A stretch of 64,000 nt of DNA from Devosia riboflavina (GTDB taxonomy: Bacteria > Pseudomonadota > Alphaproteobacteria > Rhizobiales > Devosiaceae), in NCBI RefSeq assembly GCF_000743575.1, contig NZ_JQGC01000033.1, positions 124,001 through 188,000 of the forward strand. Reading direction: 5' to 3'. Numbering within the stretch: position 1 is the stretch's first letter; each line of letters begins with the position of its first letter. The notes beneath the pieces are model-generated. The model did not search any database. It saw only the letters and a list, made by a program, of their open reading frames with translations, and had not been told where the DNA came from. Both the position numbers and the translations under genes were made by a program. This document shows positions 17,150 through 36,724 of the stretch, piece after piece.

Positions 17150-18076
17150 CTAAAGCTCAAAGCTCTCCTGCATCGCCTGAATGGCCTTGATGGCGGCCGA
17201 GGCGCGGTTTTCGACGCCAAGCTTGGCATAGACCTGCTCAAGGTGCTTGTTCACCGTGCGCGGGCTGAGGCCCAAAATATCCCCGATATCGCGATTGGAT
17301 TTTCCGCGGGCGATCCAGAGCAGCACTTCGCTTTCGCGCTGCGTCAGCCCAAAGTGCTGGCGGAGATTGTCTTCCTGCCCCTCTTCCTGCGCACCGGTCA
17401 GGCGGAAAAGATATTCGTCGCCGCCGACCACGCCGAGAAAGGCAAACTGCAGTCCCGGGGCGCCCGGCAGAGTCACATCGAACCCGCTGCCCGGTGACGC
17501 ATCGCCATGGTCGAGTCGCCAACGGGAAAAACCGCTCGACATCTCCGCCTGGCGATCCGCGTCCATACCGGAGCGTTCGAGCAGCTTGTTGGCCTGCGGC
17601 GTCGACCACAACACCGCTGCATCGGCGCCAAACGCCACCAGATGCCGCCCGGCAGCATCGAGCGCAATCCGCGCGCTCTGGGCGCGGCGGGCATTGGCAA
17701 GGTGCACCCGGATACGGGCCCGCAATTCATCGACATTGATCGGCTTTGAGAGATAATCGACGCCGCCGCTTTCGAGCGCATGGACGATATGCTCGGTTTC
17801 GGTCAGCCCGGTCATGAAGATGACAGGCACATGCGTGAGGGGCGCCATGGCCTTCAGCCGACGACAGGTTTCAAAGCCATCGAGACCGGGCATGACGGCA
17901 TCCATCAGCACCACATCCGGCACGACGCGCTGCACGATATTGAGCGCCGCCTCGCCGCTCCGCGCCACCAGCACGGTCACGCCAGCGTCTTCGAGCGCCG
18001 TCGTCAGGAAACCGAGGGATTCCGGCGAGTCATCGACCAGAAGCACAATGTCCTGATCCCGCTCAATCCGGCTCAT
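17150..18076 (-). CDS. Response regulator, REC + LuxR-type HTH, partner of the transporter-kinase
   Basis: A 308-residue two-component regulator. The receiver (about 8-130) has D15/D16 and phospho-acceptor D59 in VLMDAVMPG, and Lys in YLSKPI. A middle region of about 110 residues with no clear family follows. The C-terminal 65 residues are a LuxR/NarL-type DNA-binding domain (LTQRESEVLLWIARGKSNRDIGDILGLSPRTVNKHLEQVYAKLGV). Its start lies inside the 3' end of the hybrid kinase gene (14-base overlap), so the two are surely a pair. Divergent urt genes make them the likely target. Confidence 0.93.
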   Translation of the reverse strand: MSRIERDQDIVLLVDDSPESLGFLTTALEDAGVTVLVARSGEAALNIVQRVVPDVVLMDAVMPGLDGFETCRRLKAMAPLTHVPVIFMTGLTETEHIVHALESGGVDYLSKPINVDELRARIRVHLANARRAQSARIALDAAGRHLVAFGADAAVLWSTPQANKLLERSGMDADRQAEMSSGFSRWRLDHGDASPGSGFDVTLPGAPGLQFAFLGVVGGDEYLFRLTGAQEEGQEDNLRQHFGLTQRESEVLLWIARGKSNRDIGDILGLSPRTVNKHLEQVYAKLGVENRASAAIKAIQAMQESFEL

Positions 18077-21000
18077 GGCTCACCCGTTCGAGCAGTTCGG
18101 CATAGCCATCGAAATCGAAGCTCTCCATATGAGCGCGCAGGGCGGTCACCAAAGGCTCGTTATTGGGATCGACGGCCAGTTCGGTCAATTTCGCTTCTAT
18201 CCCCCTGATATGGCCGATCTGCCCCAGATTTGCCAAGTCACGCAAGTGCTCCACCCCTGGCGACCGCAGCTTTTGCGTTTTTTTGGCTTTTGGTGCCGGC
18301 GCCTCGAAATAGGTCCAGTCGAGAGCGAGTTGCGCGCCGATCTTGTCGAGCAATTGCGCGAGGTCGAACGGCTTTGCCAACGCATCATTATGCCCGGCAT
18401 CGCGGCTCGCTGGCCCCGCCCCATCTCCGATATTGGCCGAAAGCATGACTATAGGTTCGGCAATACCCCGTTCGCGCAGGGCCGCAACGAGATCCCAGCC
18501 GCTCATCCCCGGCATGCGAATATCGACGAAGAAGAGATCAGGCCGCGTGGTGGCAACGAGATCGAGGCACGAGAGTCCATCCGCCGCCGTCAACACGACA
18601 AAGCCCAGCGGCGACAGCATTTCGCGCATCAGCTCGCGGTGGTCCTGATTGTCATCGACGACCATCACCACCCGCGCCGGTCCCGCATAACCGACGATCC
18701 GCCGCAGATCGGCCCGCCCCTGGCTCAGACGCTCGACCTTGGCCAGCATCAACCGCGCCTGGAAGCGCGTGCCGACGCCGACCGTGCTTGAGACGGTAAT
18801 TTCGCCACCCAGCGTTTCCGTCAGCAGTTTTGTAATGGTCAACCCAAGCCCAAGTCCGGGCGTGAAGCGATTGTGCTCCGCCTCGCCGCGCACGAAGGGC
18901 TCAAAGATGTGGTCGAGATCGGCGGGAGAAATCCCGCTGCCGCTATCCGAAACCGTAAAGGTCGCCACCTGCATGCGATAAGCCACCTCAAAGCTCACGT
19001 GCCCTGAGCTGGTGAACTTGATGGCATTGGACAGCAGATTGACCAGAATCTGCCGCAGCCGCTTTTCATCGGTCCGCACATAGATCGGCAGCGCCTTGGC
19101 GCGCGTATGCCGGAACTCCAGCCCCTTGGCCTCGGCCTGAAGCCGAAACATATCGACGATCTGATCCAGAAAATCCTGAATATTGATCTCGTTAGAATAG
19201 ACGTGGAGCCGCCCCGCTTCGATCTTGGAAATATCGAGCAGGCCATCGATCAGCCCCGAAAGATGCTCCGCACTGCGGCGGATCACCTGCACCGATCCAC
19301 GCCGGTTCTCCGGCACTTCTGGATCGCGCTCAAGGATTTGCGCATAGCCCATCACCGCATTGAGCGGCGTGCGCAATTCGTGGCTGAGGCCCACGACATA
19401 GCGTGACTTGGCCTGATTGGCTGCCTCTGCCTTTTCCTTGGCGCGCTGCAATTCGGCATCGGTCTTGCCGTGCGCGTCGATTTCCTTGAGCAGCAGCGTG
19501 TTTTGCCGCGTGCTCTCTTCTTCGGCGACCAACCGGCTGTCATGCGCCAGCACGAGAAACCAGGTCATGATCCCCGCCGCCACCGCAAAGACGAAAAACA
19601 CGACGAGCAGGGTGCCCCCCACCACATCCGACGTATCCGGCGCCGATTGGCTGGCGAAATAGTAGATAAGCCCTAGAATGCCGCCGAGGATCGCTGTGGC
19701 GATACCCATGGAAATCCCATAGCGCCCAATCCGGGTCTGCAATTTCTCGATCGCCCATTGCGGCAGCACGCTCGACGCCACCGCATGCGTCTGTGCCCGG
19801 AAATGTGCATGCGGCTTGCACATGTCGTGGCACCGCGCATCGAGCGAACAACAGAGCGAGCAGATCGGCGCCGCATAAGCCGGGCACCAGGCCATGTCTT
19901 CAGGCTCGAACGGGTGCTCGCAGATCGAACAAGTCAGCGAAGTTTTGTTCGCCCATGCTTTTCGCGGTTTGCGCGCCAGATAGTATTTACCCTTCGTCGC
20001 CCATGCGATGGCCGGCGAGGCAATAAAGCAAACGACCAGCGCAATATAAGGCGCCAGCGCCGCAGCCATCTCGCCAAACGCACCAAAATGCGCCGCCAGC
20101 GCAATCACTGCCGACAGCAGCATCGACCCGACACCGACAGGATTGATGTCATAAAGATGCGCCCGCTTGAACTCGATGCCCGGCGGCGACAGCCCCAGCG
20201 GCTTGTTGACGAAAAGATCGGCTGAGATCGAGCAGAGCCAAGCCATGGCGATGATCGAGAAGATCCCAAGCGTCTCTTCCAGCAACCGATAGATCCCCAA
20301 CTCCATCAGCAACAGCGCAATGGCCACATTGAACAGCAGCCAGACCACACGGCCGGGATGGCTATGCGTCAGCCGCGAAAAGAAATTCGACCAGGCCAGC
20401 GACCCGGCATAGGCATTCATCACATTGATCTTGAGCTGACTGACCACCACGAAGACCGCCATCAGCATCAGCGCCACGAATTCATTGGGGATCATGTAGC
20501 CAAAGGCCACCGCATACATGTAACCGGGCTCTGACGCGTGCTCCGGCGAAACGCCGGACGACAGCGCCAGGAAAGCAAGGAACGACCCCGCGATCAGCTT
20601 GGGCGCGCCAACAACGACCCACCCCGCCCCCGCGAGAAAAATCCCGAGCTTCTGCCGCCACTTCGGCGCCCCCTCGGCAGGCAGAAACCGCAGGAAATCG
20701 ACCTGCTCGCCAATCTGCGTCATCAGCGCCAGAATAACCGCCGACGCCGCGCCGAACTTGGCGATATCAAAGGGCGAAATCGTCCCCGCCGCACCCTCCG
20801 GCTGCCCCAAACCCGCAAATGCCCGCCAGAGGTCGAACTTCTCCCAATCCATGAAGGCGATGAAGAAGAACGGCAGGATGTTCAGCACGATCCAGATCGG
20901 CTGCGTCAGCACCTGAAAGCTCGAAATCATCCTGATGCCATGCGTCACCAGCGGAATGACGATAACAGCCGAAATGATGTGCCCCATCCAGAGCGGAATG

Positions 21001-21434
21001 CCGAAGGCCAGCTCCAGCGCGCTCGACATAATGGAAGCTTCGATGGCGAAAAGGATGAAGGTAAAACTCGCATAGATCAGCGAGGTGATCGTCGAGCCGA
21101 TATAGCCAAAACTGGCGCCGCGGGTCAGGAGATCCACGTCCACCCCATGCCGCGTCGCATAGCGGGAGATGGGCACACCGACGAGCAGAATGGCGATTGA
21201 CGCGACGACTATCGCAATCAGCGCATTGGTTGTCCCATATGACAACGTAATGCTACCGCCAATAGCCTCCAGCGCGAGGAACGAGATGGCGCCGATCGCA
21301 GTCTGCGAGATTCGATCATTGGAAAACCGCCGCGCCGACTTGGCTGTAAAGCGCAACGCATAGTCTTCAAGCGTCTGGTTGGCGACCCAGCGATTGTATT
21401 CGCGCCTGATGGGAATGATCCGTTGCCGCGCCAT
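18063..21434 (-). CDS. Hybrid histidine kinase with N-terminal NCS1 transporter domain
   Basis: A 1123-residue membrane sensor. Residues about 1-485 are an NCS1-type (nucleobase/allantoin permease-like) transporter with roughly 12 membrane segments. Then comes a Cys-rich cytoplasmic patch (Cys502, Cys505 and about eight more within 50 residues), two further membrane segments (about 575-660) and a coiled coil. HisKA follows with His685 (SHELRTPL), then HATPase (NLLSNAIKF, DSGSGIS, GLGLGLTITK), a receiver with Asp971 (FFVDIRMPG) and a C-terminal helical tail of about 100 residues. Transporter-coupled kinases (such as CbrA, with an SSS-type domain) are established; NCS1 versions next to urea genes are less studied. 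It is divergent from urtA and overlaps its LuxR-type regulator. Confidence 0.93.
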   Translation of the reverse strand: MARQRIIPIRREYNRWVANQTLEDYALRFTAKSARRFSNDRISQTAIGAISFLALEAIGGSITLSYGTTNALIAIVVASIAILLVGVPISRYATRHGVDVDLLTRGASFGYIGSTITSLIYASFTFILFAIEASIMSSALELAFGIPLWMGHIISAVIVIPLVTHGIRMISSFQVLTQPIWIVLNILPFFFIAFMDWEKFDLWRAFAGLGQPEGAAGTISPFDIAKFGAASAVILALMTQIGEQVDFLRFLPAEGAPKWRQKLGIFLAGAGWVVVGAPKLIAGSFLAFLALSSGVSPEHASEPGYMYAVAFGYMIPNEFVALMLMAVFVVVSQLKINVMNAYAGSLAWSNFFSRLTHSHPGRVVWLLFNVAIALLLMELGIYRLLEETLGIFSIIAMAWLCSISADLFVNKPLGLSPPGIEFKRAHLYDINPVGVGSMLLSAVIALAAHFGAFGEMAAALAPYIALVVCFIASPAIAWATKGKYYLARKPRKAWANKTSLTCSICEHPFEPEDMAWCPAYAAPICSLCCSLDARCHDMCKPHAHFRAQTHAVASSVLPQWAIEKLQTRIGRYGISMGIATAILGGILGLIYYFASQSAPDTSDVVGGTLLVVFFVFAVAAGIMTWFLVLAHDSRLVAEEESTRQNTLLLKEIDAHGKTDAELQRAKEKAEAANQAKSRYVVGLSHELRTPLNAVMGYAQILERDPEVPENRRGSVQVIRRSAEHLSGLIDGLLDISKIEAGRLHVYSNEINIQDFLDQIVDMFRLQAEAKGLEFRHTRAKALPIYVRTDEKRLRQILVNLLSNAIKFTSSGHVSFEVAYRMQVATFTVSDSGSGISPADLDHIFEPFVRGEAEHNRFTPGLGLGLTITKLLTETLGGEITVSSTVGVGTRFQARLMLAKVERLSQGRADLRRIVGYAGPARVVMVVDDNQDHRELMREMLSPLGFVVLTAADGLSCLDLVATTRPDLFFVDIRMPGMSGWDLVAALRERGIAEPIVMLSANIGDGAGPASRDAGHNDALAKPFDLAQLLDKIGAQLALDWTYFEAPAPKAKKTQKLRSPGVEHLRDLANLGQIGHIRGIEAKLTELAVDPNNEPLVTALRAHMESFDFDGYAELLERVSHEPD

Positions 21435-21492
21435 TATCCGCTCAAGCCTTAACCAATTTCATGCGCTGCTCAATTTTTCGCCACCACTGTCT

Positions 21493-21508
21493 TAGCACGG
21501 ATTTTGCC
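21493..21508 (+). promoter_or_regulatory. Candidate sigma-54 (-24/-12) promoter for urt genes
   Basis: TAGCACG-GATT-TTGCC matches the consensus TGGCACG-N4-TTGCW with correct spacing and two mismatches, one of them in the important GG pair. It is about 170 bases upstream of urtA. Nitrogen control through NtrC and sigma-54 is usual for urea uptake, but this site is only a pattern match. Confidence 0.35.
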
Positions 21509-21567
21509 AAAATCACGCGGTTTTTCAGGCCCTTCCGCGCCGCAGCGGAATCTCCTCGTCAGCCAGT

Positions 21568-21583
21568 TACGTCAATCGACGTA
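21568..21583. promoter_or_regulatory. Palindrome TACGTC-AATC-GACGTA upstream of urtA
   Basis: A perfect 16-base dyad with 6-bp arms lies 93 bases before the urtA start, followed by TATAGGG. LuxR/NarL-type response regulators commonly bind TAC...GTA dyads, so it is a candidate operator for the regulator encoded at 17150-18076. No other dyad of this quality was noticed in the region. Confidence 0.45.
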
Positions 21584-21675
21584 TAGGGCAGCGTTAAAAA
21601 ATCGTCTCAGGTGCCCCCATCGAGGCGCCTCCCTTGGCTGTCTCCTGGGGTCAACAAAACTAGAGGGACGAACAC

Positions 21676-22974
21676 ATGAACTTCACCCGCGCCAAAAGCG
21701 CCCTGCTCGCCGCGGCACTCGCCGGCAGCATTTCCCTGCCCATGGTTCCCGCCATGGCGCAGGAAGACACCATCAAGGTTGGTATCCTCCACTCGCTCTC
21801 GGGCACGATGGCGATTTCGGAAACCACCCTCAAGGACACCATGCTGTTCCTCATCGAACAGCAAAACGCCAAGGGCGGCGTCCTCGGCAAGCAGCTCGAA
21901 CCCGTCGTGGTCGATATTGCTTCCGATTGGCCGCTGGCCGCCGAGCTCGCCCGCCAGCTGATCGAAGTCGACGACGTCGACGTGGTCTTCGGCTGCTGGA
22001 CCTCGGTCTGCCGCAAGTCCGTGCTGCCGGTCTTTGAAGAACTGAACTCGCTGCTCTTCTACCCCGTCCAGTACGAAGGCGAAGAATCCCAGCGCAACGT
22101 GTTCTACACCGGCGCTTCGCCGAACCAGCAGGCGATCCCGGCCGTCGACTATCTCGCCGAAGAAGAAGGCGTGGAACGCTGGGTGCTCGCCGGCACCGAC
22201 TATGTCTATCCGCAGACGACCAACAAGATCCTCGAGCAGTACCTGCTCGACAAGGGCGTCGCCAAAGAAGACATCATGATCAACTACACGCCCTTCGGTC
22301 ATTCCGATTGGCAAACCATCGTTTCCGACATCAAGGCCTTCGGCTCGGAAGGCAAGAAGACCGCCGTGGTCTCGACCATTAACGGCGACGCCAACGTGCC
22401 GTTCTATCGCGAACTGGGCAACCAGGGCATCAAGGCCGAAGACATCCCGGTCGTCGCCTTCTCGGTCGGCGAAGAGGAGCTCTCCGGCTTCGACACCACC
22501 CCACTCGTGGGTCACCTCGCCGCCTGGAACTATTTTATGAGCGTCGACACCCCGGAGAACGAGGCGTTTATCGCTGACTGGCAAAAATTCATCGGCTCCG
22601 ACACCCGCGTCACCAATGACCCGATGGAAGCCCACATGATCGGCTTCAACCTCTGGGTGAAGGCCGTGGAAGCTGCCGGTTCGACCGAAGCTGACGCCGT
22701 GATCGATAGCATCGTTGGCCTCGAAACCCCGAACCTGACCGGCGGCGTCGCCAAGATGCTCCCGAACCACCACATCACCAAGCCCGTGCTGATCGGTGAA
22801 ATCCAGGATGACGGCCAGTTCTTTGTGGTCTGGGAAACCGAAGACCTCGTCCCCGGCGACGCATGGTCCGACTACCTGCCAGAATCCAAGATGCTGGAAG
22901 CCGATTGGACCGCCCCGATCAACTGCGGCAACTACAATACCGAAACCAAGACCTGCGGCGGCGCGGCTCAGTAA
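21676..22974 (+). CDS. urtA: Urea ABC transporter substrate-binding protein
   Basis: A 432-residue periplasmic binding protein of the branched-chain-amide type. The signal peptide ends at AMA-QE. The mature protein begins DTIKVGILHSLSGTMAISE, characteristic of UrtA/AmiC-like receptors, with FGCWTSVCRKSVLP and LLFYPVQYEGEE as further typical blocks. It captures urea and delivers it to UrtBC. GGGACG precedes the ATG. It opens the urt operon, 75 bases before urtB, and is divergent from the transporter-kinase gene. Confidence 0.97.
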   Translation: MNFTRAKSALLAAALAGSISLPMVPAMAQEDTIKVGILHSLSGTMAISETTLKDTMLFLIEQQNAKGGVLGKQLEPVVVDIASDWPLAAELARQLIEVDDVDVVFGCWTSVCRKSVLPVFEELNSLLFYPVQYEGEESQRNVFYTGASPNQQAIPAVDYLAEEEGVERWVLAGTDYVYPQTTNKILEQYLLDKGVAKEDIMINYTPFGHSDWQTIVSDIKAFGSEGKKTAVVSTINGDANVPFYRELGNQGIKAEDIPVVAFSVGEEELSGFDTTPLVGHLAAWNYFMSVDTPENEAFIADWQKFIGSDTRVTNDPMEAHMIGFNLWVKAVEAAGSTEADAVIDSIVGLETPNLTGGVAKMLPNHHITKPVLIGEIQDDGQFFVVWETEDLVPGDAWSDYLPESKMLEADWTAPINCGNYNTETKTCGGAAQ

Positions 22975-23049: not shown

Positions 23050-24663
23050 ATGCTGACTCACCTTCTCCGCCTGGCACTCCTTACCCTGTCGCTTCTCCTA
23101 CCCAGCCAGATCGCCCGCGCGCAGGACGCCGCCGTCGATATTCCGGCCCAGATCGCCGCGATGGGCGAGGCGAGCCTCAAGGAACTCACACAGATCGTCG
23201 TCGAGCTTGCCTCAACCGGAGACAACGGCGTCGTTCCGGTCCTCACCGCTCTCGCAGACGGCAATCTCTATCTCGATGAAGCCTCCGGCCGCGTCGTCAT
23301 CCAGAACGGTTCGACCATCACCGATCCGCTGACCGGCGAGGCCGTTGATCTCGGCGCCGAAGCCGACCTCTCCCGCATCCGCGTCAACAATGGCCTCCGG
23401 CGCGATATTTCCGCTGCCCTCTCCGGCATGACGCTCATGAGCGACAATCCCGCGACGCGCCTTGCCGCCGCCCAGGGTTTTCTGTCCAAGCCAGACGCCG
23501 CCAATCTGCCGCTGCTCGACGAAGCCATTGCGGCCGAAACTGACGCCAATGTCCGCGGCGCCATGCAGGCCGCCCGCGCCGTCACCATCCTGACGAGCGA
23601 AGATGCCAGCATCGAAGACAAGAACGCCGCCGTGCCCCAGGTCGTCGCCGGCGCCGGCCGCAATGCCATCACCATTCTCACCGGCGCTCTGGCCGATGCA
23701 CCAGATGAAGTGAAGCCGACCATCGAAGCCGCCATCGCTGGCCTCGAACAGGGCCGCGCCGTCTGGGGCGCCCTGCAAAACGTCTGGTTCGGCGTTTCTC
23801 TCGGCTCCGTCCTCCTCCTCGCCGCCATCGGCCTTGCCATTACCTTCGGTGTCATGGGCGTTATCAATATGGCCCATGGCGAGATGGTCATGCTAGGCGC
23901 CTACACGACCTTCCTCGTGCAGCTCGTCATTCGCCAGAATTTCCCGGGCCTGCTCGACTATTCCCTGCTTATCGCCCTGCCCGTTGCCTTCCTCGTCACC
24001 GGGGCCATCGGCGTCGGGATCGAACGTGGCATCATCCGCTGGCTCTACGGTCGTCCGCTCGAAACGCTGCTCGCCACCTGGGGCCTATCGCTTATCCTGC
24101 AGCAAACCGTTCGCTCAATCTTCGGCCCGACCAACCAGATGGTCATCGCCCCGACCTGGATGTCCGGATCGACCGACTTCTTCGGCCTCGCCATCACCTA
24201 CAACCGCTTCTGGATCGTCATCTTCGCGCTGATCGTCTTCTTCATGCTGTTGCTGATCCTCAACCGCACGCCGCTCGGCCTTCAGATGCGCGCTGTCACC
24301 CAGAACCGCCGCATGGCCTCAGCCATGGGCATCCGCACCCCCTTCGTCGACGCCATGACCTTCGGCCTCGGTTCGGGCATTGCCGGCCTTGCTGGCGTGG
24401 CCCTCACCCAGATCGACAACATCTCGCCGAACCTGGGCCAGAACTACATCATCGATAGTTTCATGGTCGTGGTCTTCGGCGGCGTCGGCAATCTCTGGGG
24501 CACCTTTGTCGGCGCGCTCACACTCGGCGTCGCCAACAAGTTCCTGGAGCCCTATGCCGGCGCGGTGCTCGGCAAGATCCTGATCCTGGTGCTGATCATC
24601 CTCTTTATACAGCGGCGTCCGCGGGGCCTCTTCGCCCTCAAGGGAAGGGCGATCGAACAATGA
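23050..24663 (+). CDS. urtB: Urea ABC transporter permease UrtB
   Basis: A 537-residue inner-membrane protein. After a signal-like N-terminus (to ARAQ) there is a periplasmic extension of about 200 residues rich in Ala and helices, including ADGNLYLDEASGRVV. The LivH-type permease domain follows (from about 240) with about eight membrane segments and the INMAHGEMVMLGAYT motif. The long extension is a known trait of UrtB proteins and its role is unclear. A GGA lies before the ATG. It pairs with UrtC to form the urea channel. Confidence 0.96.
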   Translation: MLTHLLRLALLTLSLLLPSQIARAQDAAVDIPAQIAAMGEASLKELTQIVVELASTGDNGVVPVLTALADGNLYLDEASGRVVIQNGSTITDPLTGEAVDLGAEADLSRIRVNNGLRRDISAALSGMTLMSDNPATRLAAAQGFLSKPDAANLPLLDEAIAAETDANVRGAMQAARAVTILTSEDASIEDKNAAVPQVVAGAGRNAITILTGALADAPDEVKPTIEAAIAGLEQGRAVWGALQNVWFGVSLGSVLLLAAIGLAITFGVMGVINMAHGEMVMLGAYTTFLVQLVIRQNFPGLLDYSLLIALPVAFLVTGAIGVGIERGIIRWLYGRPLETLLATWGLSLILQQTVRSIFGPTNQMVIAPTWMSGSTDFFGLAITYNRFWIVIFALIVFFMLLLILNRTPLGLQMRAVTQNRRMASAMGIRTPFVDAMTFGLGSGIAGLAGVALTQIDNISPNLGQNYIIDSFMVVVFGGVGNLWGTFVGALTLGVANKFLEPYAGAVLGKILILVLIILFIQRRPRGLFALKGRAIEQ

Positions 24664-24703: not shown

Positions 24704-25903
24704 ATGCTGACCCAAGCCCTGTTCCGTGCGCTCGACAAAAAGGCCGTATGGGTCATCGGCATCTTCCTCGCCGTGGCCGTCCTCGTGCCCATGGCCAATC
24801 TGCTGATCCCGCCCGGCCAGTTCGGCCACGTGCCGACCTATCTCGTCTCGCTGCTCGGCAAATACCTGAGCTACGCCATTCTGGCGCTCGCGCTGGACCT
24901 CGTCTGGGGCTATTGCGGTATCCTCTCGCTCGGCCACAGCGCCTTCTTCGCGCTCGGCGGCTATGCCATGGGCATGTATCTCATGCGCCAGATCGGCACG
25001 CGCGGCGTCTATGGCAATCCGACGCTGCCGGACTTCATGGTGTTCCTCAATTGGAAGGAACTGCCCTGGTATTGGCTCGGCTTCGACAATTTCTGGTTCG
25101 CCATGGCCATGGTCGTGGTTGTCCCCGGCCTTCTCGCCTTCATCTTCGGCTTCTTCGCTTTCCGTAGCCGCGTAACGGGCGTCTATCTCTCCATCATCAC
25201 CCAGGCGATGACCTTCGCCCTGCTGCTCGCCTTCTTCCGCAACGACATGGGCTTTGGCGGCAACAACGGCCTCACCGACTTCAAGGACATTTTAGGCGCC
25301 CCGGTTCAGGCCCAAAGCACCCGCGTCATCCTCTTCGCCGCTACTGCCATTGCCTTGGCTCTCTCAGTCCTCGTCTGCTCGATGATCGTCAATTCCAAGC
25401 TCGGCAAGGTGATGGTCGCCGTGCGCGATGCCGAAAGCCGCACGCGCTTCATCGGCTACCGCGTCGAATACGTAAAACTCTTCGCCTTCACCGTCTCGGC
25501 CATCATGGCCGGCATTGCCGGCGCGCTCTATGTGCCACAGGTCGGCATCATCAATCCCGGCGAGTTCGAGCCCGGCAATTCCATCGAAGTGGTCATCTGG
25601 ACTGCCGTCGGTGGCCGCGGCACCCTGATCGGCCCGATCATTGGTGCCATCGTCGTTAACCTCGGAAAGTCCTGGTTCACGAGCGCCCTGCCCGAATTCT
25701 GGCTCTTCGCCCTCGGCGCACTCTTCATCTTCGTCACCCTGTTCCTGCCCAAGGGTATCGTCGGCCTCTGGAAGCAGCTCTTCGGCATACGCCGCAAAAA
25801 GGCCGAGGAGCCCGCCCTGCCCACTCCGGCTCAGTCCGTCGATATCGAGCGCGGCGAAGACTCTGCCACCTTCGACAATCCTCAAATCCGGCCGGCGGAG
25901 TAA
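24704..25903 (+). CDS. urtC: Urea ABC transporter permease UrtC
   Basis: A 399-residue LivM-type permease with about ten membrane segments. Typical blocks are ALDLVWGYCGILSLGHSAFF near residues 65-85 and YVPQVGIINPGEF, and a conserved EVVIWTAVGGRGTL coupling region for the ATPases. The last 35 residues are a hydrophilic cytoplasmic tail. The start is 40 bases after urtB and the stop six bases before the urtD ATG, in line with one transcript. Confidence 0.96.
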   Translation: MLTQALFRALDKKAVWVIGIFLAVAVLVPMANLLIPPGQFGHVPTYLVSLLGKYLSYAILALALDLVWGYCGILSLGHSAFFALGGYAMGMYLMRQIGTRGVYGNPTLPDFMVFLNWKELPWYWLGFDNFWFAMAMVVVVPGLLAFIFGFFAFRSRVTGVYLSIITQAMTFALLLAFFRNDMGFGGNNGLTDFKDILGAPVQAQSTRVILFAATAIALALSVLVCSMIVNSKLGKVMVAVRDAESRTRFIGYRVEYVKLFAFTVSAIMAGIAGALYVPQVGIINPGEFEPGNSIEVVIWTAVGGRGTLIGPIIGAIVVNLGKSWFTSALPEFWLFALGALFIFVTLFLPKGIVGLWKQLFGIRRKKAEEPALPTPAQSVDIERGEDSATFDNPQIRPAE

Positions 25904-25908
25904 AGCCA

Positions 25909-26658
25909 ATGAGCAAAGCGCAGGACACTATGCTCTACCTCAACGGCGTCTCGGTTGCCTTTGACGGGTTCAAGGCCATCAATAATCTCTCGATTATCGT
26001 CCGACCCACCGAAATGCTGGCCATTATCGGCCCCAATGGCGCGGGCAAGACCACGATGATGGACATCATCACCGGCAAGACGCGACCCGACGCCGGCGAG
26101 GTCATGTTCGATGGCCGCACCGATCTCACCAAGCTCGATGAAGCCGCCATCGCCAATCTCGGCATCGGCCGCAAATTCCAGAAGCCCACCGTGTTCGAGA
26201 GCCACACGGTCTGGGACAATCTCGAAATGGCGCTGAAGAAACCGCGCGGCATCTTTGCCGCCCTCTTCTACACTGCCAGCGACGAAGACGTGACCCGCAT
26301 CACCGAAATCCTCGAAACCGTCCGCCTCCTCCACCGCAAGGACGAGTTTGCCGCCAATCTAAGCCACGGCCAGAAGCAATGGCTCGAAATTGGCATGCTG
26401 CTTGCACAAGATCCCAAGCTCCTGCTCGTCGACGAACCCGTCGCCGGCATGACCGACAGCGAAACCGAGGAAACAGCCAAACTGCTGCGCGAAATCGCCA
26501 AGACCCGATCCGTCGTAGTGGTCGAGCACGACATGAGCTTCGTGCGCGAACTCGGTTCGCGCGTCGTCTGTCTGGCTGAAGGCGCCGTGCTGGCCGAAGG
26601 GTCGCTGGACCAAGTGAGCGCCAATCCCGTGGTGATCGAAAGGTATCTTGGACGATGA
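25909..26658 (+). CDS. urtD: Urea ABC transporter ATPase UrtD
   Basis: A 249-residue LivG-type ATPase. Walker A is GPNGAGKTT, the signature is the UrtD-typical NLSHGQKQWLEIGM, Walker B is LLLVDEPVAGMT, and the switch His is in VVVEHDMSFVRE. It powers urea import with UrtE. Its stop overlaps the urtE start (ATGA). Confidence 0.96.
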   Translation: MSKAQDTMLYLNGVSVAFDGFKAINNLSIIVRPTEMLAIIGPNGAGKTTMMDIITGKTRPDAGEVMFDGRTDLTKLDEAAIANLGIGRKFQKPTVFESHTVWDNLEMALKKPRGIFAALFYTASDEDVTRITEILETVRLLHRKDEFAANLSHGQKQWLEIGMLLAQDPKLLLVDEPVAGMTDSETEETAKLLREIAKTRSVVVVEHDMSFVRELGSRVVCLAEGAVLAEGSLDQVSANPVVIERYLGR

Positions 26659-27359
26659 CCGCCGCACTCTCGATCTCAACTATCAACCTTCACTACGGCG
26701 CCGCTCAGGCGCTCAAGGGCGTGTCGATCGATTGCCAGTCGGGCCGGATCACTGCCGTGCTCGGCCGCAATGGCGTCGGCAAATCTTCGACTCTGCGCGC
26801 CATTACCGGCATCAACCACATCTCGTCCGGTGCCGTAACTTTCGGCAGCGAAGTGCTCAAAAAAGCGCCACCCTATAAACGCGCTCGCATGGGTATCGGC
26901 TATGTGCCGCAGGGTCGCGAAATCTTCCCGCTACTGACGGTCAAGGAAAACCTCGAAACCGGCTATGCCGGTCTCGCCCGCAGCGACAGAAACATTCCCG
27001 AATACATTTTCGAGCTGTTCCCCGTCCTAAAATCCATGCTTGGGCGGCGGGGCGGCGATCTCTCGGGTGGCCAGCAGCAGCAGCTCGCTATCGGCCGCGC
27101 TCTGGTCACCCGACCCAAAGTTCTGGTTCTCGATGAGCCCACCGAAGGCATCCAGCCCTCGATCATCAAGGACATTGGCCGCGCGCTGCAATTCCTGCGC
27201 GACGAAAAGGGCATGACCATTCTGTTGGTCGAGCAATTCCTCGATTTCTGCCGCGAAATTGCTGACGACATCTACGTCATGGACCGCGGCGAAATCATGC
27301 ACAAAGGCCCGGCGAGCGATCTCGACCTGCAGGATGTGCGCAAACACCTGATGGTATGA
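26655..27359 (+). CDS. urtE: Urea ABC transporter ATPase UrtE
   Basis: A 234-residue LivF-type ATPase with Walker A GRNGVGKSS, signature LSGGQQQQLAIGRAL, Walker B VLVLDEPTEGIQP and the switch His replaced by Gln in LLVEQFLDF, as is normal for the LivF branch. It is the last gene of the urt operon. A small gene on the opposite strand follows, with only an imperfect hairpin (about 27361-27388) between, so read-through towards ureD is possible. Confidence 0.96.
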   Translation: MTAALSISTINLHYGAAQALKGVSIDCQSGRITAVLGRNGVGKSSTLRAITGINHISSGAVTFGSEVLKKAPPYKRARMGIGYVPQGREIFPLLTVKENLETGYAGLARSDRNIPEYIFELFPVLKSMLGRRGGDLSGGQQQQLAIGRALVTRPKVLVLDEPTEGIQPSIIKDIGRALQFLRDEKGMTILLVEQFLDFCREIADDIYVMDRGEIMHKGPASDLDLQDVRKHLMV

Positions 27360-27822: not shown

Positions 27823-28677
27823 ATGAATTTTGCGACCAGGCCGAATTTCGAGGCAATTTCGTCTGCTCCCGTGATGCAGCGCGCCAGAGGCACTGCGCGC
27901 ATCGGCACCAAGCAACGCGACGGAAAGACTTGTATCGACACGCTTTTTCAGGAGGGCTGCGGCAAGATCCGTCTGCCGCGCACGCATTCTTCTGCACTTG
28001 AAGCCGTTTTTATCAATACGGCCGGCGGCATTACCGGCGGCGATCATTTGCGCTGGGGCGCCGATATCGCCCCCGAAGGTCGGCTGGTCATCACCACCCA
28101 GGCCTGCGAACGCAGCTATCGCTCCACAGGCGACACGGCGCATGTGGAAGCCGATATCAATGTCGGCGCGGACGCACATCTCGATTGGCTTCCCCAGGAA
28201 ACCATCCTCTTCGAAGCCAGCAAGCTCGACCGGCGCCTGACGATCCGCCTCGATGAAGGCGCTACCCTTACCGCCATCGAGGCTGTCCTGCTCGGTCGCG
28301 ACGCCATGGGCGAGGAAGCGCGCGACGCACAATTCTCCGACACCTGGCGCATTTTCCGCGGTGATCGTCTGATCCATGCCGAAGCAACCCGCCTCACCGG
28401 CGATGGCAGCGAGCGCGATGGCCTTTCCCTGCTACGCGGCTGCCGTGCCTTTGCTTCTATCCTTCATGTTGCACCGAGTGCCGACAGAGCCGAACAGCTC
28501 CTCGATCGCGTTCGGGCCCTTCACCCCGCCGCCGGCCTGATCGCGGCCAGCGCCAACGGCGAGCGCCTCGTCATTCGCGCCATGGCCCGCACGGGCCTTG
28601 CCTTGCGAAAACTTCTGGTTCCAACTCTCATCGAACTGACCGGCGCCGGCTCCCTGCCGCGCCTGTGGCATCTCTAG
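27823..28677 (+). CDS. ureD: Urease accessory protein UreD
   Basis: A 284-residue protein with the UreD/UreH blocks: [14 protein letters not shown] (about 64-77), [10 protein letters not shown], and [14 protein letters not shown]. UreD binds the urease apoenzyme and, with UreF and UreG, forms the nickel-delivery complex. It starts the urease gene run, 77 bases after the divergent small secreted gene; the intervening DNA contains an imperfect hairpin (about 27776-27815). The Shine-Dalgarno is weak. Confidence 0.95.
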
Positions 28678-28687
28678 GAAACGGCCG

Positions 28688-28990
28688 ATGAACCTCACCC
28701 CCCGCGAAAAAGACAAGCTCCTCATCGCCATGGCCGCCATCGTCGCGCGCAAGCGTCTGGAGCGCGGCGTCAAACTCAACCACCCCGAGGCCGTGGCCCT
28801 GATCACCGATTTCGTGGTCGAAGGCGCCCGTGACGGCCGCCCGGTCTCCGAACTCATGGAAGCCGGCGCCCATGTCATCACCCGCGCCCAGGTCATGGAG
28901 GGCATCGCCGAGATGCTCCACGACGTGCAGGTCGAAGCCACTTTCCCCGACGGCACCAAGCTCGTCACCGTCCACCAGCCCATCCGCTAA
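28688..28990 (+). CDS. ureA: Urease gamma subunit
   Basis: A 100-residue structural subunit of urease with the usual start [20 protein letters not shown] and end VTVHQPIR. Length is standard. It lies 10 bases after ureD, whose stop is followed by an AGGAAACGG-type ribosome-binding region. Confidence 0.97.
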
Positions 28991-29000
28991 CGAGGCCACC

Positions 29001-29579
29001 ATGTTCAAGCGCACGCTGATCGCCCTTGCCATTCTCGCCACCGCCACCATGCCGGCCTTCGCCCATCTTGATCCCGGCGCGCATGGATCATTCGCCGCCG
29101 GCTTCAGCCACCCGCTATTCGGGCTCGATCATATCCTGGCCATGGTCGCTGTCGGCCTTTGGGCCGCGATGCAGGGCGGAAAAGCTGTCTGGATCGTCCC
29201 CGGCGCCTTTGTCGGCACCATGGCCGTGGGCTTCGCAGCCGCCATTGCCGGTGTGCCCCTGCCCTTCGTCGAGCCGGTCATTCTCGCCTCGGTGATCTTC
29301 ATCGGCATCGCCATCGCGCTCGCCCTGCCCGTCCCGACATCGGCCGTGGCCGCTATGGTCGGCTTCTTCGCCTTCTTCCATGGCCACGCCCATGGCGGCG
29401 AACTCGGAGAAGCCGGCGCCTGGGAGTTCGCTATCGGCTTCATCGCCGCAACGGCTGTCCTCCATGCCGTTGGCATTGGAGCCGGCCTCGCTCTCGGCCG
29501 CTTCGGCGGCAAGTGGCTTTCGCGCATCGCCGGTGCCGCGACCGCCCTCGGCGGCCTCTGGCTCACCTTCGGCGCGTGA
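29001..29579 (+). CDS. ureJ: HupE/UreJ family membrane protein
   Basis: A 192-residue protein with a cleavable N-terminus (ending AFAHLDPG) and about six membrane segments. It has the HupE/UreJ hallmarks [19 protein letters not shown] and a His-rich [13 protein letters not shown] loop. Members are thought to move nickel into the cell for urease or hydrogenase. Its placement between ureA and ureB supports a nickel supply role for urease. The start is ATG at 29001, 11 bases after ureA. Confidence 0.93.
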
Positions 29580-29589
29580 GGCAAACGCC

Positions 29590-29895
29590 ATGATCCCGGG
29601 CCAAGTCATCCCCGCCGCAGGCACGATGGAACTCAATACCGGGCTCGAACAGCTCACCATCGAAGTCGCCAATACGGGGGACCGGCCGATCCAGGTCGGC
29701 TCCCACTACCACTTCTATGAAACCAACGCCGGCCTCAGCTTCGATCGCGAGAAAACCCGCGGCATGCGCCTCGACATCGCCGCCGGCACCGCCGTCCGCT
29801 TCGAACCCGGCCAAAGCCGCGAAGTGCGCCTTATCCCCATCGGCGGTGATCGCAAGGTCTACGGCTTCCGCCAAAAGGTCATGGGGTCGCTGTGA
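29590..29895 (+). CDS. ureB: Urease beta subunit
   Basis: A 101-residue subunit starting [16 protein letters not shown] and containing the conserved [12 protein letters not shown] and [15 protein letters not shown] blocks. Length is standard for separate UreB proteins. It lies 10 bases after ureJ. Confidence 0.97.
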
Positions 29896-30531: not shown

Positions 30532-32241
<1,710 letters not shown>

Positions 32242-35597: not shown

Positions 35598-36071
35598 ATG
35601 CTTCGTGCCGTTGCCCATTTGCCCGCCCATCACGGCCGCGGCGCCGCCATCGACAGCATCACCCTCGCCCACGACGAGCGCCGCCTGCGCCGTAAGCTGC
35701 TCACCGGCAAGAACGGCACCGAGGTCCTCGTCGATTTCCCCAATACGGTGACTCTTGACCATGAAGGCGCGCTCGAGCTGGAAGATGGCCGCCTGTTCGA
35801 AATCCTCGCAGCCAAGGAAATCCTCTACGCCGTCACCGCCGACGACGCCGCGCATCTCCTGCGCCTCGCCTGGCACATCGGCAATCGCCACACCCCAGCA
35901 CAGCTTGACGCCGACCGCATCCTCATCAAGCGCGACCATGTGCTGAAAACCATGCTCGAAGGCCTCGGCGCCAAGGTCACCGACGTAACCGAGCCCTTCT
36001 TTGCCGAGCACGGCGCCTATCACAGCCACAACCACGCCGAACCGGCCCACGCCCTCCTCGCCCGCAAGTGA
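35598..36071 (+). CDS. ureE: Urease accessory protein UreE (nickel chaperone)
   Basis: A 157-residue metallochaperone. An N-terminal beta domain is followed by the nickel domain with [11 protein letters not shown] (about 94-104), [13 protein letters not shown], and a C-terminal His-rich tail [12 protein letters not shown]. The His-rich tail binds extra nickel in the family. The stop overlaps the ureF GTG start by four bases (GTGA). Confidence 0.96.
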
Positions 36072-36724
36072 GCACCGATCTGCAAAAACTGCTGACCTGG
36101 CTGTCCCCCGCCTTCCCGGTGGGCGCTTTCGCCTGGTCAGCCGGCCTCGAAACCGCCATCGTCAGCCGCCTCGTGCATGATCGGAAAACCGCCGAAGACT
36201 GGATATCAGGCGCCCTGCTCCATGGCAGCCTCCGCACTGACGCCATCCTTCTAGCCCACGCGCATAGGGCGCCCCGCGCGCCGGAAAAGCTCCAGGAACT
36301 GGCTGATCTCTGCTTGGCACTGACACCGGCAAAAGAACGCCACGCCGAAACCACCATGACCGGCAATGCCTTCGCAACGGCTGGCGCCGCCTGGCCAGTT
36401 GAGCCGCCACTTGAGCTGCCCCTCCCCTGCCCCTACCCAATCGCGGTCGGCGCTCTGGCCGGCGCCCATGGCGTCGGCGCCCTCGATACGCTCGTCGCTT
36501 TCCTCACCGCCACGGTCCACAGCCAGGTGTCCGTCGCCGTGCGTCTGGTACCCATCGGCCAGACAGACGGCCTTGCCATCATGGCTGCGCAGGAGCCCAA
36601 AATCGCAAAACTGGCTGATATCTGCCAACATGCCACACTGGACGAAATCGGCAGCGTCGCCTATGGCGCCGATATCGCCCAGATGCAGCACGAAACGCTG
36701 CCCACAAGGATCTTTCGTTCATGA
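36068..36724 (+). CDS. ureF: Urease accessory protein UreF
   Basis: A 218-residue helical protein with the UreF opening [21 protein letters not shown] and the internal [10 protein letters not shown]. UreF acts as activator of UreG GTPase in the UreDFG complex. It starts with GTG inside the ureE stop and ends overlapping the next start (ATGA), so translation of three genes is coupled. Confidence 0.95.

Follow-up and report, generated by a model that had tools for sequence, protein, structure and literature searches.

SLC5 transporters (CbrA, CrbS, RpuS) and an ammonium transporter were already known to occur fused to a histidine kinase. CbrA of Pseudomonas is an SLC5-STAC-histidine kinase transceptor in which the side chain of K196 fills the Na2 site (PMC13022988). 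CrbS, which also contains SLC5 and STAC and whose signal is acetate, is a hybrid kinase working with a LuxR-family regulator, CrbR, and this regulator needs an inverted repeat at its target promoters (PMC5715377). RpuS/RpuR, again with SLC5 and STAC, controls the gene of a pyruvate symporter (PMC9100948). The ammonium sensor histidine kinase from Kuenenia stuttgartiensis is likewise a transporter-kinase fusion for a nitrogen compound; it differs from the system described here in having the fold of an ammonium transporter and in coming from an anammox bacterium (PMC5764959). As to the genes that such a sensor could serve, a urea-type ABC cluster, the second in Bradyrhizobium japonicum, adjoins PF03069 and AmiE genes, which led the authors to suggest an amide other than urea; a kinase is not mentioned for this cluster in the available part of the text (PMC3098086). 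The fmdCABDEF cluster of Methylophilus methylotrophus encodes a putative regulator, the term "two-component" being absent from the main text of the review (PMC10781810). The kinase of EupR was considered as a further relative and not taken; the word "urea" does not occur in the available text (PMC2964678). A fusion of an NCS1 carrier with a histidine kinase was not found in literature searches, which covered open-licence PMC papers.

The locus described here lies in a window of 64,000 nucleotides from Devosia riboflavina, by which the whole stretch of DNA analysed is meant. On its minus strand, at 18063..21434, it encodes a hybrid histidine kinase of 1123 amino acids with an NCS1-related N-terminal domain (ORF, Pfam and family alignment). 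The parts of this protein, all encoded on the minus strand, are an NCS1-related 12-helix domain (residues 1–487, 19974..21434; AF2, Foldseek + VIA, HHalign), a Cys-rich module with eight Cys (C502–C539, 19818..19931; family alignment), a membrane hairpin, TM13-TM14, that enters the kinase coiled coil (approximately residues 568–632, 19539..19733; AF2 of the linker), and three domains identified with Pfam: HisKA with His685 (residues 676–741, 19212..19409), HATPase_c (residues 788–897, 18744..19073) and a receiver with Asp971 (residues 923–1032, 18339..18668). His685 is conserved in 56/56 and Asp971 in 54/56 aligned members of the family. An HPt at the C-terminus of the kinase was considered and dropped: the 56-member alignment has no conserved HPt-like His there, His at position 1063 being the commonest residue in just 21 of the 56 and Tyr the commonest at position 1075. 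Most close relatives go in the databases by the names ATP-binding protein or hybrid sensor histidine kinase, to which purine-cytosine permease-like protein is added in some JGI names.

The kinase ORF overlaps by 14 nucleotides the gene of a NarL/LuxR-type response regulator (17150..18076, minus strand, 308 amino acids), in which Pfam finds a REC domain with Asp59 and a LuxR-type (GerE) HTH; Asp59 is present in 51/51 aligned regulators. Divergent from the kinase, on the plus strand, are the genes of a urea ABC transporter, namely urtA for the binding protein (21676..22974; TIGR03407, 540.7 bits), urtB (23050..24663; TIGR03409), urtC (24704..25903; TIGR03408), urtD (25909..26658; TIGR03411) and urtE (26655..27359; TIGR03410), with 5/5 above the NCBIfam cut-offs. 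On the same strand follow a putative ureD (27823..28677), so named from its position alone as it has no NCBIfam match at E ≤ 0.01, ureA for urease gamma (28688..28990; PF00547), the gene of a HupE/UreJ family protein (28830..29579; PF04955), ureB for urease beta (29380..29895; PF00699), and ureC for urease alpha (30532..32241; TIGR01792, above cut-off); the ORF starts given for the HupE/UreJ protein and for ureB are probably too early. Other genes intervene before ureE (35598..36071; PF05194/PF02814) and ureF (36068..36724; PF01730). UrtA is matched only once in this genome at E ≤ 1e-10, so that closeness to the kinase within 10 kb would arise by chance there with a probability under 1%. A formamidase-family gene is also present, on another contig.

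Like CbrA, the Devosia protein joins a LeuT-fold transporter to a histidine kinase, and like CrbS/CrbR it combines a hybrid kinase with a LuxR-family regulator. Unlike CbrA, it is NCS1-related rather than of SLC5 type, its linker consists of an eight-Cys module plus TM13-14 without a Pfam match, it has a receiver, and its apparent targets are local urea/amide genes, whereas RpuS/RpuR controls a pyruvate symporter gene. New here are a palindrome upstream of urtA and, as far as open-licence PMC papers show, the NCS1-related version of such a fusion. We consider it likely that a transporter has here become a receptor kinase for urea, within a proteobacterial family that senses urea or short-chain amides, and that this kinase controls the urt and urease genes.

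The preliminary description of this DNA had recognized a transporter part, HisKA, HATPase and a receiver in one protein, overlapping a LuxR-type regulator gene and facing urtABCDE and urease, all of which ORF, Pfam, NCBIfam, fold and profile analyses bear out. It had also called the transporter part a complete NCS1 type, which holds for fold and profile and fails for PF02133 (Transp_cyt_pur), and it had overlooked the Cys-rich module, the additional hairpin and the palindrome upstream of urtA. The full 1123-residue protein does not match PF02133 at E ≤ 0.1, nor do the N-terminal domains of 10/10 members at E ≤ 1, and Pfam and PDB sequence searches with the N-terminal transporter domain gave no match. 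The fold of the AF2 model, however, is closest to CodB and Mhp1 (Foldseek + VIA), and a profile-profile comparison with NCS1 gives a significant match (HHalign). Because the domain escapes PF02133 we call it NCS1-related rather than NCS1. It is not assigned to SLC5, since there are zero Pfam matches in the domain and both fold and profile are nearest to NCS1.

In the core of the domain, Glu132, Thr125, Gln240, Glu243, Gln244, Gln333, Lys335, Asn337 and Asn340 are invariant in 56/56 members, and position 336 is Ile or Val. Aligned to CodB, Glu132 corresponds to Gly112, Asn337 to Asn280 and Lys335 to Thr278, which presumably belongs to the Na2 region; Trp108 and Phe204, which we take to be the residues that stack on the nucleobase in CodB, correspond to Phe/Leu128 and to a mostly aliphatic position 238. 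This comparison is tentative because helix 8 moves by two residues in a poorer alignment and HMMER places gaps in helices 6 and 8. With the same reserve, the invariant Lys335 would lie where CbrA has K196, in the Na2 site. In seven aligned stand-alone relatives, Glu132, Gln333 and Asn340 are found in 7/7, Arg or Lys at position 335 in 7/7, Asn337 in 6/7, and Glu56, Thr125, Glu243 and Gln244 in 0/7. The best-scoring stand-alone relative in a search of 398 genomes, 28–30% identical, adjoins a nitrilase-type gene and a gene for an UrtA-like binding protein. Such a stand-alone NCS1-type carrier beside CN_hydrolase and an UrtA-like binding protein is seen at L094:6949-11373 (plus strand); the gene set is perhaps an uptake system for an amide or a nitrile product and a guide to the ligand of the sensor.

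Between transporter and kinase there is no Pfam match; the model shows here the Cys module after the transporter, then the TM13-TM14 hairpin and then the kinase coiled coil (AF2 of the linker, pLDDT 86.8, pTM 0.59). The eight Cys, at positions 502, 505, 517, 525, 528, 529, 535 and 539, are invariant in 56/56 members, and from their pattern the module probably binds metal. A Foldseek search with the Cys-rich linker had no match at E ≤ 0.001, RING, PHD and LIM domains appearing solely at E > 1. When the module alone was used as query against 299 genomes, 42 matches in 38 genomes were obtained, and 42/42 were fusions of this kinase family; since scoring was limited to 23 candidates per genome, a distant copy outside the fusions could have been missed. 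One could think of the transporter domain as mainly an anchor, with nitrogen, redox or metal status being sensed via the Cys-rich module or from the cell interior. Urease needs nickel, and the invariance of the eight Cys and the confinement of the module to the kinase family, within the candidates scored, would fit such a signal. The many invariant polar residues in the core of the transporter domain argue against it, as does a transporter-less relative, which has lost most of the Cys module, too. This relative (L101:6857-8713, plus strand), a 618-residue hybrid kinase of the family without the transporter domain, has kept part of the Cys module along with hairpin, kinase and receiver; 0/5 tested flanking genes are urea or amide genes, one of the five being its own regulator. 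A mere anchor is in our opinion unlikely. It should be noted, however, that the same genes could also respond to ammonium status or to an intracellular signal, which would be compatible with the gene linkage and the palindrome described below.

In 398 genomes drawn across the phylum a match to the protein at E ≤ 1e-5 is found in 60, and a near-full fusion (E below 1e-160) in 52, at 57 places. The latter number excludes stand-alone carriers, G288 with its missing transporter, and the short fragments of G236 and G070, which may be pieces of fusions. The analysis of gene context covered 55 of the 57 places, with 11–20 kb each, omitting the window itself and the partial match G224. Urea or amide genes stand beside the fusion in 54/55 loci, the lone exception, L051, ending at a contig edge. 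An UrtA-like ABC gene together with fmdA is found in 35/55, and 20 of these 35 also have an AmiE-type gene; 17/55 are of urea type (9 with urt and ure, 7 with ure, 1 with urt), and 2/55 have fmdA plus AmiS/UreI. The ABC and formamidase/amidase set of B. japonicum is the one seen wholly or partly in the 35 loci (PMC3098086). For FmdA, CN_hydrolase, AmiS_UreI and the FmdB-type zinc ribbon one example each was identified with Pfam, the others being tblastn matches. The UrtA-like proteins of amide-type loci are 35–40% identical to UrtA of the window, and 3/3 amide-linked binding proteins tested (L044:7574-8956, L065:11174-12529 and L084:7374-8639) pass TIGR03407. This label alone is therefore no proof of urea, and automatic "urea transporter" annotations may be wrong for the amide-linked group. 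In 80 named loci, the best 80 of 576 confirmed and skewed to close relatives, an UrtA-like gene is present in 76; of the remaining four, three lie near the end of a contig, which leaves L145 as a genuine exception. Genera with the system include, among these best 80 of 576, Rhizobium, Sinorhizobium, Bradyrhizobium and Devosia.

The link to urea metabolism and the dedicated unit for sensing, import and hydrolysis that the preliminary description had proposed are supported by this co-occurrence across genomes and by the conserved palindrome upstream of urtA. Allantoin or another product of purine breakdown, which it had also named as ligand, no longer appears likely. Nucleobases, hydantoins and allantoin are substrates of known NCS1 carriers, and the fold is closest to CodB and Mhp1, so that the domain might sense allantoin or a nucleobase and the urea genes might be controlled as the end of the pathway. 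Yet 37/55 loci have a formamidase-family gene without a urease match (20 of the 37 also with an amidase-type gene), and none of the annotated neighbours of the fusions, a subset of all neighbours, is a purine gene. Moreover, the presumed stacking residues of CodB are replaced by Phe/Leu128 and the mostly aliphatic position 238, as far as the alignment in helices 6 and 8 can be trusted, whereas Glu132, Gln240, Glu243, Gln244, Lys335 and Asn337 are invariant. Sensing of a purine product is thus quite improbable.

A history of exchange between urea and amides points the same way. In one FastTree tree of the transporter domain, in which several inner nodes are weakly supported (0.30–0.58), the urea-linked members fall into three or four groups, interspersed with amide-linked ones. 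By parsimony the linkage changes 4 times; 500 shuffles of the labels never gave fewer than 10 changes (L051 omitted). That amides came first is an assumption, since the root was placed on L088/L089, two deviating loci described at the end. Because the linkage changed about four times, the signal is likely urea or a short-chain amide and not a purine product. A residue scan of the family found no pocket residue that cleanly separates urea-linked from amide-linked members. Residue 326 was considered as a context switch and rejected, as it changes only in a scattered manner, being mostly Ala in 3/4 urea groups and mostly Gly, Val or Thr in amide-linked members. The lack of a residue tracking the split suggests a pocket that would accept the carbonyl-amide group common to urea and amides, or else specificity that sits elsewhere.

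The putative operator upstream of urtA is TACGTCAATCGACGTA at 21568..21583, on neither strand in particular, a NarL-like 7-2-7 palindrome recognized by its geometry, with its centre 100 bp upstream of urtA. In the NarL 7-2-7 arrangement inverted heptamers starting with TAC stand two bases apart, for example TACCCCTAAAGGGGTA (PMC4549865), and the geometry at 21568-21583 would fit an operator of a NarL-type regulator. For comparison, the fusion loci were pooled with the best 80 of 576; of 121 two-gene loci in this pooled set, 85 have divergent kinase-urtA regions, which together with the window gives 86. The pooled loci contain duplicate genomes, since the two sets overlap in part; L041 and L114, like L051 and L168, lie on contigs of the same length. 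The best 5-mer dyad, TACGT-N6-ACGTA, is present in 42/86 regions, while in 20 shuffles no dyad occurred in more than 3. With the motif discovered in the same 86 pooled regions in which it was counted, the palindrome is exact in 42, present with ≤1 mismatch in 57 and with ≤2 mismatches in 82; five base-composition shuffles gave 0 exact, 0–1 and 5–10, respectively, and random segments from the same loci 0–2 at ≤1 mismatch. With ≤2 mismatches it is found in 31/32 urea-type and 51/54 amide-type regions of the pooled set and exactly in 29/32 and 13/54, many amide-type sites having the variant TACGC-N6-GCGTA.

The other 36 pooled loci, which lack the divergent side-by-side arrangement of kinase and urtA, were held out and are separate, though related. 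With ≤1 mismatch or an exact TACGC-N6-GCGTA counted as a site, 34/36 have one within 200 bp upstream of urtA (L074 and L081 have none near urtA), as against 2/36 upstream of the kinase, 0/36 upstream of the regulator and 0/35 each upstream of UrtB, UrtC and UrtE. From these counts the site tracks urtA and not the kinase. At ≤1 mismatch it is absent in seven urease-only loci, in three of which urtA probably lies just beyond the examined stretch. In the 5.05-Mb genome of the window, TACGTCNNNNGACGTA, one strict pattern, has a single match at ≤1 mismatch, at 21568-21583; judged by a reversed-pattern control with 7 matches per strand, this uniqueness reflects the general rarity of such a pattern in the genome. 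When 21380-21740 was scanned for promoters, the plus strand had no site, and the one match on the minus strand overlapped the start of the kinase. That the palindrome belongs to another regulator, with the kinase-regulator pair controlling something else or merely being adjacent, is very improbable: binding by this regulator is indeed something we infer, and L145 has a site without urtA, but the geometry fits a NarL-type regulator, L088 and L089 with their OmpR-type regulator (L088 by Pfam, L089 by clustering) are without a site, albeit also without urtA, and the single strict match in the window's genome speaks against a global regulator.

The preferred reading, a receptor kinase for urea or short-chain amides, can be put as follows. 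The NCS1-related domain would bind the ligand, with transport perhaps retained; this binding would change the LeuT-fold domain, and the eight-Cys module and the TM13-14 hairpin would convey the change to the kinase. His685 would become phosphorylated, with Asp971 of the receiver tuning the signal or else relaying or draining phosphate; in the REC-LuxR regulator, Asp59 would be phosphorylated in turn. A dimer of the regulator could then bind the palindrome at 21568-21583 and would presumably activate, rather than repress, urtABCDE and the downstream urease genes. In D. riboflavina the output is most likely one urea operon. More tentatively, and with somewhat more doubt than confidence, we picture a whole NCS1-related carrier turned into a receptor for urea or small amides, with a positive charge at the sodium position, a private eight-Cys metal module replacing STAC as the relay, an output of a single promoter in the window's genome, and about four changes between amide and urea gene sets.

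To our knowledge, little is understood of the means by which soil and marine proteobacteria detect urea or small amides specifically, rather than their general nitrogen status; many genomes now offer a candidate receptor together with its regulator and a candidate operator of 16 bp. In addition, the few known transporter-kinase fusions gain a second family of LeuT fold whose coupling module is different, which helps to distinguish what a transporter needs for signalling from what it needs for transport.

Two deviating arrangements should finally be mentioned. At L145:9903 an exact palindrome lies upstream of the kinase, with no urtA within the 21-kb locus; this is possibly an autoregulated or a displaced system. 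In L088 (4060-11015) and L089 (3882-11060) the fusion has no receiver and is thus non-hybrid, and it is accompanied by AmiS/UreI, FmdA, an OmpR-type regulator and an extra REC-kinase gene (for the missing receiver, the regulator and the extra gene, in each case one locus was tested with Pfam and the other assigned by clustering): they are a second wiring of the same sensor.
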